In this document: positions 47,811 through 51,499 of the stretch, piece by piece
Position numbering within the stretch: position 1 is the stretch's first letter
Layout: the number at the start of each line of letters is the position of its first letter
NCBI GenBank assembly: GCA_022820995.1
Contig: JAJEEM010000050.1
Location: forward strand, 1-64,000
From: Gemmatimonadota bacterium
GTDB taxonomy: Bacteria > Gemmatimonadota > Gemmatimonadetes > Palauibacterales > Palauibacteraceae
Length of the DNA stretch: 64,000 nucleotides
Direction: 5' to 3'
Position numbers and translations under genes: made by a program
The notes under the pieces: model-generated
What the model was told of the DNA's origin: nothing
What the model saw: the letters and a program-made list of their open reading frames with translations, nothing else
Database searches by the model: none

Positions 47811-48547
47811 CGCCGCCGGAGCAGCAGGCGATCCGGATCAAGAGGCTCTTCCGGAAGACGCGCTTCGGCATCTTCGTCCTCTTCGGCGCCATCGTATTCG
47901 CCACGTCCACGCTCTCGATCCGAACGGTCTCCAGCCAGTTGCAGGAGGAGTACGAGAGCAACAGCGCGAACATCGCCAAGAACATCGCCGACTCCAGCGT
48001 CGACATCCTTCTCAACCGGAACCTCGCCACGCTGCAGTCGCTCATCGACCAGTTCATCGAGATCCAGAGCATCCGGTACATCTACATCACGAGCGACACG
48101 GGCGAGATCCTGACCCACACGTTCGTGCCCGGCGTCCCCGATGTGATCCGCGAGGGCGACCCGCACGCGACCGAGCCGATCGAACGCAGCCTGCCGGGGA
48201 TGGGCGATTTCGTCGAGGTCGGGAGCCCGATCCTGGCCGGCCAGGCCGGTACGGTGCACGTGGGGATGGACCTCGACCTCGTGCGGCTCAAGATCCAGCG
48301 CGCCACGGGACAGCAGATCGCCCTGATCTGCATCATTCTCATCGTCGGCGTCCTGGGTTCGATCTGGTTCGTGAAGCTCGCCGTCACCCCGCTGGAGGAA
48401 CTGCTCTCCTACGTGGTGGGACTGGCCCGCCGCGACCCGGGCGGGATGACGGATGCACGGGTGCTGGCGCGCGACGACGAGATCGGGGAGATGGCTCGCC
48501 TGATGCTTCACGCGGTGAAGGGTGAAACGACGCCGGGAGCGGACTGA
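47807..48547 (+). CDS. Two-TM periplasmic-sensor/HAMP membrane protein lacking an output domain
   Basis: TM1 FGIFVLFGAIVFATSTLSI, extracytoplasmic loop of about 110 aa, TM2 QQIALICIILIVGVLGSIWFV, HAMP-like LAVTPLEELLSYVVGLARRDPGG...RDDEIGEMARLM, then stop. GTGA overlap with upstream gene. Confidence 0.78.
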   Translation: MTPPEQQAIRIKRLFRKTRFGIFVLFGAIVFATSTLSIRTVSSQLQEEYESNSANIAKNIADSSVDILLNRNLATLQSLIDQFIEIQSIRYIYITSDTGEILTHTFVPGVPDVIREGDPHATEPIERSLPGMGDFVEVGSPILAGQAGTVHVGMDLDLVRLKIQRATGQQIALICIILIVGVLGSIWFVKLAVTPLEELLSYVVGLARRDPGGMTDARVLARDDEIGEMARLMLHAVKGETTPGAD

Positions 48548-48548
48548 G

Positions 48549-49841
48549 GTGTCCACCGAGGGGTGGAAGGCGCCCCGAGTCGCGATCGCCTTCTTCTGCA
48601 CCGTCCTGCAGGTCTGCTTCGGCACCGTCTACGCGTGGAGCTTCTTCCAGACGATGCTGGTGCGGCAGGCGGGCTGGACGTTCACGCAGGGGTCGCTCGC
48701 CTTCTGCATCGCGATCTTCTCGCTCGGAACGGCGGCGGCCTGGGCCGGCCAGTTGCTGCCGCGGGTGGGTCCCCGGCGGCTCGCCCTCATCGGAAGCACG
48801 CTGTTCGCGGGCGGCTACATCATCGCGAGCTTCGCGCTGCGGATCGACTCGATCCTCCTCTTCTACGCCGGCTACGGGCTCATCGGGGGCATCGGCATCG
48901 GACTCGGGTACGTGACTCCGGTCACCACGGCCGCGAAGTGGTTCCCGGACCGGAAGGGGCTCGTCACGGGCATCGTCGTCATGGGCTTCGGCATCGGCGC
49001 GCTCATCCTCAGCAAGGGTCTCGCACCGCTGTTGGTGCTGCAGACGGAGGGGGATCTCCCGCAGATCTTCCTGTGGCTCGGGATCGTCTTCGCGTGCATC
49101 CTGATCCCCAGCAGTTTCGTCATCGACGATCCGCCGGCCGCCCAGGTCGCGCCGTGGAAGCAGCCGGCGAAGGTGGGGCAATACCTGAAGTCGAGCCAGT
49201 TCGTCATCATCTGGATCGTTTTCTTCTTCAACATCGCCGCGGGCATCTCGGTCATCAGCTTCCAGTCCGAACTCCTGCAGGAGGTGTGGGGGCTGGCCGA
49301 TCCCTCGGTAGAACCCGCGGTGCTGGCGGAATACGGGGCGACGCTCATCGCGGCGAGTTCCGTGTGCAACGGAGTCGGGCGCATCCTGTGGGCCTGGCTC
49401 TCCGACCGCATCGGGCGCGTCGGCGTGTTCCGGATCCTGCTCGCGAGCCAGATGGTCGTGTTCGGCGTCCTCATGACCGAGTCCAATCCGTGGATCTTCT
49501 CCGCGCTCGTGTGCTACGTGCTGCTCTGCTTCGGCGGAGGATTCGCGACCATGCCCTCGTTCATCCTCGAGGTGTACGGCCCCGGGAACATGTCGAAGGT
49601 GTACGGCGCGATTCTCACCGCCTGGGCCGCGGCGGGGATCACCGGCCCGCTGTACGTCGGATACCTCAAGGACTCCTATCCAGACCGGGCGGTGATGTAC
49701 TGCTTCCTGATCGGGATCCTGATGCTCGGCGCGGGCTACCTGTTCTCGTACCTGCTGGACGATGACCGCGTCAGCCTGGGCCGCCCGACGGTGAAGAAGA
49801 CGCTGGAGCGCTACGGGATCCCCGTCGCCGACCGGACCTGA
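48549..49841 (+). CDS. MFS transporter, oxalate/formate antiporter (OFA)-like
   Basis: 12-TM MFS; YVTPVTTAAKWFPDRKGLVTGIVVMGFGIGA; AWLSDRIGRVGVFRILL; GTG start at 48549. Confidence 0.9.
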   Translation: MSTEGWKAPRVAIAFFCTVLQVCFGTVYAWSFFQTMLVRQAGWTFTQGSLAFCIAIFSLGTAAAWAGQLLPRVGPRRLALIGSTLFAGGYIIASFALRIDSILLFYAGYGLIGGIGIGLGYVTPVTTAAKWFPDRKGLVTGIVVMGFGIGALILSKGLAPLLVLQTEGDLPQIFLWLGIVFACILIPSSFVIDDPPAAQVAPWKQPAKVGQYLKSSQFVIIWIVFFFNIAAGISVISFQSELLQEVWGLADPSVEPAVLAEYGATLIAASSVCNGVGRILWAWLSDRIGRVGVFRILLASQMVVFGVLMTESNPWIFSALVCYVLLCFGGGFATMPSFILEVYGPGNMSKVYGAILTAWAAAGITGPLYVGYLKDSYPDRAVMYCFLIGILMLGAGYLFSYLLDDDRVSLGRPTVKKTLERYGIPVADRT

Positions 49842-49845
49842 CGCG

Positions 49846-50280
49846 CTACCGCTCGTGTCGCGCCGGCGGCTGCGCGGGAGCGACGGCGAATACCTCCACC
49901 TGCACCGGGAGGCCCGGAACTCCGGCCAACCGCCGGTCCGTCGTCAGCAGCGGGGCAGCAAGGGTCTCCGCGAGCGTGACGTAGGCGGCGTCGTACGCGG
50001 TGAGGTTGTGGCGACGGGACCAGATCCTCGACAGGAGCGGCTCGTGTCCGTGCCGCCGCACATCGAGATCGAGGAGGTTGCGATACGCCTCGCCGGCACG
50101 GGTCGACGAGACCGCCCCGGTTTTCTCGTACCGGCGCAGAACGTGGAGCACTTCGAGGTCCAGGAGTTCAGGGCTGTGGAGGGAGATCCCGGGATCGGAG
50201 ATTCGTTGCATGATTCGGGCGCCGGAGGGCGTACCCACTACCAGTTCCACGACGGCGGATGCATCCAGGACGGCGACCAC
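49846..50280 (-). CDS. PIN-domain toxin (VapC/FitB-like)
   Basis: VAVLDASAVVELVVG; LEVLHVLRR; LTAYDAAYVTLAETLAAPLLTTDRRLA. Confidence 0.92.
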   Translation of the reverse strand: MVAVLDASAVVELVVGTPSGARIMQRISDPGISLHSPELLDLEVLHVLRRYEKTGAVSSTRAGEAYRNLLDLDVRRHGHEPLLSRIWSRRHNLTAYDAAYVTLAETLAAPLLTTDRRLAGVPGLPVQVEVFAVAPAQPPARHER

Positions 50281-50286
50281 GCGGCG

Positions 50287-50517
50287 TCAGCGCCTCGCCC
50301 GGGCTTCGCGGAGGACCTCGCTCGGCGGGGGATCCGGTTCGATCGGTGGGAGCCGGGCAATGCGGTTGAACAGCTCTTCCCGCGTGGGCTTCTCCAGGGA
50401 CCGGCGGATCTCGCGCAGGACGTAGTCCGACATCGACGTGCCGGCGAGCGCCGCACGGGACTTGAGCCGCCGGTGCAGTTCGTCCGGCATGTTTCGTATC
50501 TGAAGCATCTTTGACAT
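50287..50517 (-). CDS. Ribbon-helix-helix antitoxin (FitA/VapB-like)
   Basis: LQIRNMPDELHRRLKSRAALAGTSMSDYVLREIRRSLEKPTREEL; immediately upstream of the PIN toxin. Confidence 0.9.
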   Translation of the reverse strand: MSKMLQIRNMPDELHRRLKSRAALAGTSMSDYVLREIRRSLEKPTREELFNRIARLPPIEPDPPPSEVLREARARR

Positions 50518-50552
50518 GTGACGAACATGATTTCATGTTATAAACATGTCAA
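50511..50552. promoter_or_regulatory. Concentric double palindrome; candidate TA operator and symmetric divergent promoter
   Basis: TTGACATGT-GACG-AACATGA-TT-TCATGTT-ATAA-ACATGTCAA: 9-bp outer and 7-bp inner arms share one centre (50531/50532). TTGACA hexamers face outward on both strands with mirrored ATG codons. Confidence 0.7.
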
Positions 50553-50587: not shown

Positions 50588-51499
50588 ATGAACTCTTTCT
50601 CGGCTCCTTTCAGCGGCGCCCTCGCCGCGCTCGCGATGGCGTTTTTTTTCGGCTCGTGCGCGTCGCCGCCGGCTCCCCGGCCGCCGCTGGAGGTCGCGTG
50701 GGCGCCGGGCGCCCCCGTCCAGGGTCACCTCTTCGTCATCGGCGTCGCGGCGCCATCGGGCTCCGGCGTGATCTCGGCCGCCGGCGAGGTGGCTGGCGAG
50801 GCGCTGCACTTCCGGCGCGTCGGACCCCTGCTCGAGAGTCTGGCGGCGGTCCCGATTTCGACGGTGGACACGCTCGACGCGTGGGTGCGGGCGGACTATG
50901 CGGACGGCCGGTCCCGGACCGACTCGCTCCGCATTCCCGTGCGGGAGGGCGAATACGCACATGAGCGGCTCACGGTGGCCCCGCGCTTCGGGTCCCCGCC
51001 GAACGAGGAAGACCAGGCGCGGCTGGCAAGCGATCGGGCGAAGGCCGCCCGTGCCTCGCGCGAAGCGCACGCCATGCCGCGCATGTGGAGCACGGTGCGT
51101 CTCCCCCGCGAGTCCCGCGTGACGAGCGGCTTCGGCACGGGCTGCGAGTTCAACGGACAGATCACGAGCCGCCACATGGGACTCGACCTGGCCGGCGCCC
51201 GCGGCGCGATCGTGGCGGCGGCCGCCGATGGCGTCGTGGCGGTCGTCGACGGCTTTCTGCTCGGAGGGAACGTCGTCTACCTCAATCACGGCGGCGGCCT
51301 GCTCACCGGCTACTTCCACCTGAGCGAACAACTCGTCTCCGTCGGCGACACGGTCACGGCGGGGACGCCCATCGGACGGGTCGGGGCCACGGGTCGCGTT
51401 ACCGGCCCCCACCTGCACTGGGTCGTGCGTTACGGGGGTACGAGCGTGGACCCGCGCAGCCTGCTCGCGCTCCCGGGGATCAGAGCCATCCCGGAATGA
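50588..51499 (+). CDS. M23-family metallopeptidase, lipoprotein
   Basis: Lipobox FFGSC; TSGFGTGCEFNGQITSRHMGLDLAGARGAIVAAAADGVV; GGGLLTGYFHLSE; GPHLHWVVRYGG. An alternative start at 50546 lies inside the palindrome. Confidence 0.88.
   Translation: MNSFSAPFSGALAALAMAFFFGSCASPPAPRPPLEVAWAPGAPVQGHLFVIGVAAPSGSGVISAAGEVAGEALHFRRVGPLLESLAAVPISTVDTLDAWVRADYADGRSRTDSLRIPVREGEYAHERLTVAPRFGSPPNEEDQARLASDRAKAARASREAHAMPRMWSTVRLPRESRVTSGFGTGCEFNGQITSRHMGLDLAGARGAIVAAAADGVVAVVDGFLLGGNVVYLNHGGGLLTGYFHLSEQLVSVGDTVTAGTPIGRVGATGRVTGPHLHWVVRYGGTSVDPRSLLALPGIRAIPE

Follow-up and report, generated by a model that had tools for sequence, protein, structure and literature searches.

An array of four CATG boxes as the probable operator-promoter of a FitA/VapB-type toxin-antitoxin module in Gemmatimonadota

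The 42-bp palindrome located between a vapBC-type gene pair and an M23 peptidase gene of a Gemmatimonadota bacterium is very probably the operator-promoter of that pair, which encodes a ribbon-helix-helix (RHH) antitoxin of the FitA/VapB type and a PIN toxin. As judged from its sequence and from its relatives, it would represent a variant of the known type II autoregulation, apparently with an undescribed and unusually rigid operator. The window considered here is the whole stretch of 64,000 nucleotides that was analysed (contig JAJEEM010000050.1, positions 1 to 64,000), and its relevant features are collected in Table 1.

Table 1. Features of the vapBC-M23 region (positions in the window)
Feature	Position	Strand	Basis
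MFS-type transporter, directly before M23 in congeners without the insertion	48522..49841	+	Synteny; MFS assigned by sequence inspection
vapC toxin, 144 aa, PIN domain	49846..50280	-	Pfam PIN 2.8e-10
vapB/fitA-like antitoxin, 76 aa, ribbon-helix-helix	50287..50517	-	Pfam FitA-like_RHH 3.6e-9; PDB VapB12 4.1e-7; model
Probable vapB operator-promoter, 42 bp comprising the -35, the -10, the four CATG boxes and the antitoxin ATG	50511..50552	-	Sequence; conserved in 108/112 pattern matches
CATG box 4, holds the antitoxin ATG (minus strand)	50515..50518	.	Sequence; array kept in relatives from protein search
Predicted leaderless transcription start, A of the antitoxin ATG	50517	-	Constant 6-nt spacing, conserved frame, lack of SD
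-10 element CATGTT, 17 nt from -35 (consensus CATGYT, -7 T 96 %)	50524..50529	-	Alignment of pattern matches
CATG box 3, within the -10 hexamer of the antitoxin promoter	50526..50529	.	Sequence, relatives
CATG box 2	50534..50537	.	Sequence, relatives
CATG box 1, overlaps -35; origin of the spurious plus-strand ATG 50546	50545..50548	.	Sequence, relatives
-35 element TTGACA, vapB promoter	50547..50552	-	Also in the relatives located through protein similarity only
M23 peptidase and probable lipoprotein, with 50588 and not 50546 as the most likely start	50588..51499	+	Orthologue N-termini, sister genome G007

The structure is a concentric inverted repeat, returned in the same form by a repeat finder, with outer arms of 9 bp (50511-50519 and 50544-50552) and inner arms of 7 bp (50524-50530 and 50533-50539) around a common centre; sequence, coordinates, arms and centre were exactly as an earlier note on this DNA had given them. 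Both strands carried the promoter-like succession of TTGACA, 17 nt, CATGTT, 6 nt and ATG, again in agreement with that note. It was the only concentric 9+7 double palindrome of the window, and 40 windows simulated with the same dinucleotide composition contained none. The palindrome occurred once in its own genome when up to two mismatches were tolerated, and a reversed control pattern gave no match there. An Rfam scan of the window returned no RNA family. The arms were built from four CATG boxes with a spacing of 11, 8 and 11 bp, and it was this array, not the complete 9-bp outer arm, that was conserved elsewhere. The conserved core can be written as TTGACATG-N7-CATG-N4-CATG-N7-CATG, the antitoxin ATG lying inside the last CATG.

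The antitoxin scored 36.9 bits against PF22513 (FitA-like_RHH, cutoff 27) and the toxin 41.3 bits against PF01850 (PIN, cutoff 23.6), which assigned them to the RHH antitoxins and the PIN toxins, respectively. The start of vapC lies 6 nt past the vapB stop, and acidic columns were conserved across 93 related toxins. VapB12 from Mycobacterium tuberculosis was both the closest solved sequence (4.1e-7) and the top fold match (E 0.011) of the antitoxin, whose AlphaFold model displayed an N-terminal strand region followed by two helices, as expected for an RHH protein. FitA (2bsq chains), Arc and CopG followed with weaker E-values; the weakness of these fold matches is due to the small size of the antitoxin. 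The inverted repeat overlaps the operon promoter, the latter being judged by sequence only. The minus-strand ATG at 50517, already taken as the antitoxin start in the earlier note, appears to be the correct one in view of its in-frame conservation among orthologous modules.

Relatives were located by antitoxin protein search and the DNA upstream of them was read without any DNA pattern; this is the only set of operators free of the circularity of a pattern search. Orthologous antitoxins were found in congeners and in more distant Gemmatimonadota, in differing surroundings, and the DNA preceding them displayed TTGACATG followed by CATG at 11, 8 and 11 bp, the last one providing the antitoxin ATG. 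Within the genus, the operator was present in eight out of 17 genomes, which were exactly those with this antitoxin type, and a genome with two such antitoxins harbored two operator copies; the nine remaining genomes, without this antitoxin type, lacked it. In a wider sample of the phylum, the four-box array was found in 26 of 395 genomes and a reversed control array in none. One box was missing in a relative from the same order (L015) and in a congener (L011). The array itself, its lock to the antitoxin start and its co-occurrence with the antitoxin were thus directly observed.

The same core, amounting to 20 fixed bases, was also scanned for on the DNA level in 84,980 genomes. It matched at 112 places, against ~0.5 expected by chance (2 x 2.57e11 / 4^20), and at 108 of these a FitA-like antitoxin started exactly at the last CATG, which argues for the earlier proposal that the palindrome serves as antitoxin promoter/operator. 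Two of these antitoxins were cut by the locus end just past an obvious start; the other 106 could be read fully or nearly so and displayed the signature M-x(1-3)-M-[ILV]-Q-x-R. Conservation of TTGACATG and of the CATGs in the 106 holds by construction, since both were fixed by the search pattern. A PIN-type ORF came next in 93 of the 98 antitoxins with enough downstream DNA, with a 4-nt overlap in 72. The operator occurred in unrelated gene neighbourhoods and, according to record titles (metagenome-bin assignments carrying some risk), in Gemmatimonadota, Acidobacteria, Alpha-, Beta-, Gamma- and Deltaproteobacteria, Planctomycetes, Myxococcales, Spirochaetes and Acidimicrobiia. Among the carriers is the cultivable Inquilinus limosus (L127). 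One record titled Gammaproteobacteria RHO1_bin_70 (L128) displayed an antitoxin and an operator nearly identical to those of Palauibacter, indicating either a recent transfer or a misbinned contig. The four remaining matches preceded one unrelated gene and three GntR-type regulator genes (by inspection; L064, L158 and L163). The latter were associated with a different palindrome, of GACATCATGACGTCATGATGTC type, which is probably the autoregulatory operator of another family.

Positions left free in the search uncovered a clear asymmetry of the promoter. The base after the third CATG was C or T and the following one T in 96 %, so that the -10 reads CATGYT, its A lying at -11 and the conserved T at -7. 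Where the operator mirrors this -7 T, A was found in only 25 %, and the conservation therefore reflects a directional promoter constraint, not operator symmetry. CATGYT agrees with TATAAT at three of six positions, a poor match and the same count as previously noted for CATGTT. Bases flanking the outer boxes were pyrimidine/purine and covaried as T-A or C-G (p = 6.6e-5 by Fisher's test). Compensatory change, which the earlier note had envisaged for both arms, was not significant at the inner flank bases (p = 0.36); neither p-value is corrected for relatedness. The four-CATG array was kept across orthologous loci but the full 9-bp outer arm and the mirror half were not. The outer TCAA of the window palindrome corresponds to Ser-Lys codons of the antitoxin. 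N-termini of related antitoxins read MPK, MTT, MAI, MYK and others. On the plus strand, the mirror TTGACA, which is the antisense of the Ser-Lys codons, was present in only 11 out of 105 operators. Both the symmetric promoter and the full length of the outer arm (9 bp) are therefore partly coincidental.

In every case the antitoxin ATG was found 6 nt past the -10, a fixed distance from which transcription would be expected to start on the A of the ATG. Seven, eight or nine codons separated this ATG from the Q-x-R, length changes being always of whole codons, and codons 2-3 varied as coding sequence does. Only four of 105 operators displayed an SD-like motif, which was missing in 101. The fixed TTGACA-17-CATGYT-6-ATG arrangement, the conserved -7 T and the missing SD make it likely that the antitoxin mRNA is leaderless and translated from the operator-embedded ATG, as was raised in the earlier note and is now suggested by more than 100 orthologous modules. 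It would not be leaderless if the antitoxin, behind the same operator, were translated from the second in-frame ATG (50508) or if the RNA started farther upstream. A second in-frame Met was indeed found within six codons of the start in 98 of 105 antitoxins, and the -10 is weakly matched. Furthermore, ~370 kb of the own genome displayed no TANNNT peak upstream of ATGs, with an SD peak being visible, so that leaderless genes are not obviously common there, although this comparison is limited by start codons guessed from longest frames. Against such a start stand the whole-codon changes between the first ATG and the Q-x-R, the coding-like variability of codons 2-3, the missing SD and the invariable 6-nt distance. 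A start other than the leaderless one is thus regarded as unlikely, while retaining some weight.

The layout of the preferred operator-promoter suggests the following mechanism. Transcription from the minus-strand promoter TTGACA-17-CATGTT would begin on the first base of the antitoxin start codon, 6 nt past the -10, and probably produce a leaderless vapBC mRNA. RHH dimers place a two-stranded ribbon in the major groove of DNA, and Q6 and R8 of the DNA-facing strand of the antitoxin were invariant, matching the invariant CATG core. VapB dimers, alone or in the VapBC complex, would bind the four boxes (11/8/11 bp), each self-complementary CATG taking one dimer, in two pairs whose members lie about one helical turn apart and which face each other across the 8-bp step. 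Since the boxes extend over the -35, the spacer, the -10 and the start codon, their occupation by an excess of antitoxin would repress the operon, most naturally through steric exclusion of RNA polymerase. Binding, repression, stoichiometry and the exact transcription start are predicted in this scheme, whereas the asymmetric conservation of the -10 was observed. The module, mobile over evolutionary time, was inserted in reverse between the MFS and M23 genes in this lineage, and the plus-strand mirror promoter and mirror ATG probably arise as by-products, from the symmetry of the operator and from the Ser-Lys codons.

The earlier note had instead interpreted the palindrome as a symmetric bidirectional promoter/operator, with M23 starting from the mirror ATG. 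In other congeners M23 directly followed the MFS gene with no toxin-antitoxin (TA) pair in between; the MFS stop lay 52-83 nt before the M23 lipobox in ten of them, most of which displayed a GTG start at or beside this stop. G007 is the only close relative sharing the vapBC-M23 arrangement of the window; in both, vapBC was found reversed between the two genes, the ancestral GTG was absent and an ATG stood at the position of 50588. This is likely the present M23 start, a new upstream ATG that seems to take the place of the lost GTG; the start that the earlier note had mentioned as an alternative is thus the most likely one. Position 50546 was rejected as the M23 start, as the alignment with M23 orthologues of other congeners begins only around residue 22-30 and as the mirror ATG, in frame with M23 in the window, opens a frame of only 10 codons in G007.

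M23 was not adjacent to the module in the other congeners holding it. Directly before M23, G015 (L042, ~2450-2670) displayed a vapC remnant that matches residues 2-58 of the window toxin at 72 % identity, and it had no operator there; M23 therefore outlives the module. An apparent antitoxin C-terminus was also seen in G015, which has the aspect of a decayed insertion at the same junction. M23 stands beside the palindrome because the vapBC pair landed in front of it, and a two-way promoter shared by vapBC and M23 is unsupported and not needed to explain the locus. If the plus half fired too, M23 would come under antitoxin control. The plus-strand TTGACA-17-CATGTT is intact in both genomes with vapBC before M23, and there M23 lost its ancestral place behind the MFS gene together with its GTG start and therefore needs read-through or a new promoter. 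However, the plus -35 is dictated by the Ser-Lys codons, and among the 11 operators sharing it the mirror-ATG frames ranged from 9 to 127 aa, none of their products being seen to recur. Orthologous loci had neither a conserved second promoter half nor a conserved second gene start, and no divergent neighbour recurred beyond groups of at most four among 97 upstream contexts. The short frame of G007 and the retention of M23 in G015 after loss of the operator also speak against a plus-strand function, which is considered improbable. The same low probability is given to a capture after insertion, whereby the symmetric operator would now act in two directions in this lineage and the TA repressor would control M23, a probable peptidoglycan hydrolase; if true, this would be a host gene captured by a TA operator. 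More generally, the symmetry of an operator can mimic a bidirectional promoter.

A main role of the palindrome in recombination or insertion, for instance as the end of a mobile element, is hardly credible and was rejected: vapBC does occupy different sites among congeners and was inserted here into an otherwise tight gene pair, but the array was found only at the antitoxin end, always overlapping the antitoxin start in frame, its promoter positions were conserved asymmetrically, neither the toxin end nor any other part of the genome contained a second copy, and the pattern was absent from 2.9 million viral contigs. A plasmid search with the antitoxin and the family consensus gave no match even at E 0.1, to which little weight is given.

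Among known systems, FitAB of Neisseria gonorrhoeae is likewise an operon of an RHH antitoxin and a PIN toxin, and the antitoxin described here belongs with the Pfam FitA-like_RHH. The FitAB hetero-octamer binds operator DNA through two RHH motifs (PMC3384007). The operator described here is made of four CATG boxes and has the start codon inside the last one. The FitA operator is named IR36; this name was not found in the open-access papers searched. In VapBC29 of M. tuberculosis, the operator CATCAC-N6-GCGATG also overlaps the -10 (GATGTT), just before the transcription start (PMC6118392), but binding requires one pair of 6-bp repeats in place of four CATG boxes, and operator letters and phylum are different. 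Four repeats for an RHH antitoxin and overlap with the -10 are shared with relO of Escherichia coli RelB-RelE, where the operator is bipartite, with one part overlapping the -10, and RelB dimers occupy its four 6-bp repeats (PMC2812701, PMC3920265); relO differs in its repeat, [A/T]TGT[A/C]A, in its adjoining 12-bp half-sites and in its RelE-type toxin. No paper on a CATG operator of an RHH antitoxin was found among the open-access papers searched.

A single signature, TTGACATG-N7-CATG-N4-CATG-N7-CATG, thus marks a FitA-type TA subfamily across many phyla and brings predicted repressor sites, promoter and start codon together within 38 bp. Such modules, and the true starts of their antitoxins, can be annotated with its help. 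The signature also predicts leaderless antitoxin mRNAs outside mycobacteria, in which leaderless TA transcripts were mapped: of the 37 M. tuberculosis TA pairs whose primary start has been mapped, 32 are leaderless (PMC3898074).

Two further arrangements were observed. Antitoxins of a related branch (MIQVRNV, RRAS/RRAE; L027, L028 and L029) displayed a shortened upstream array, consisting of the start region and of CATG pairs with an 11-bp spacing, which is possibly a reduced four-box operator. A second VapB type (MSVQITIRDVPEEV...), present in the own genome (L003, C70:25148-25360) and in L024, L025 and L030-L033, was preceded by a different conserved CTTGCGAAACG...TGTCAAAATG-N5-ATG, in which an AT-rich hexamer likewise lies 6 nt ahead of the ATG; this type is possibly another leaderless antitoxin with an operator of its own.
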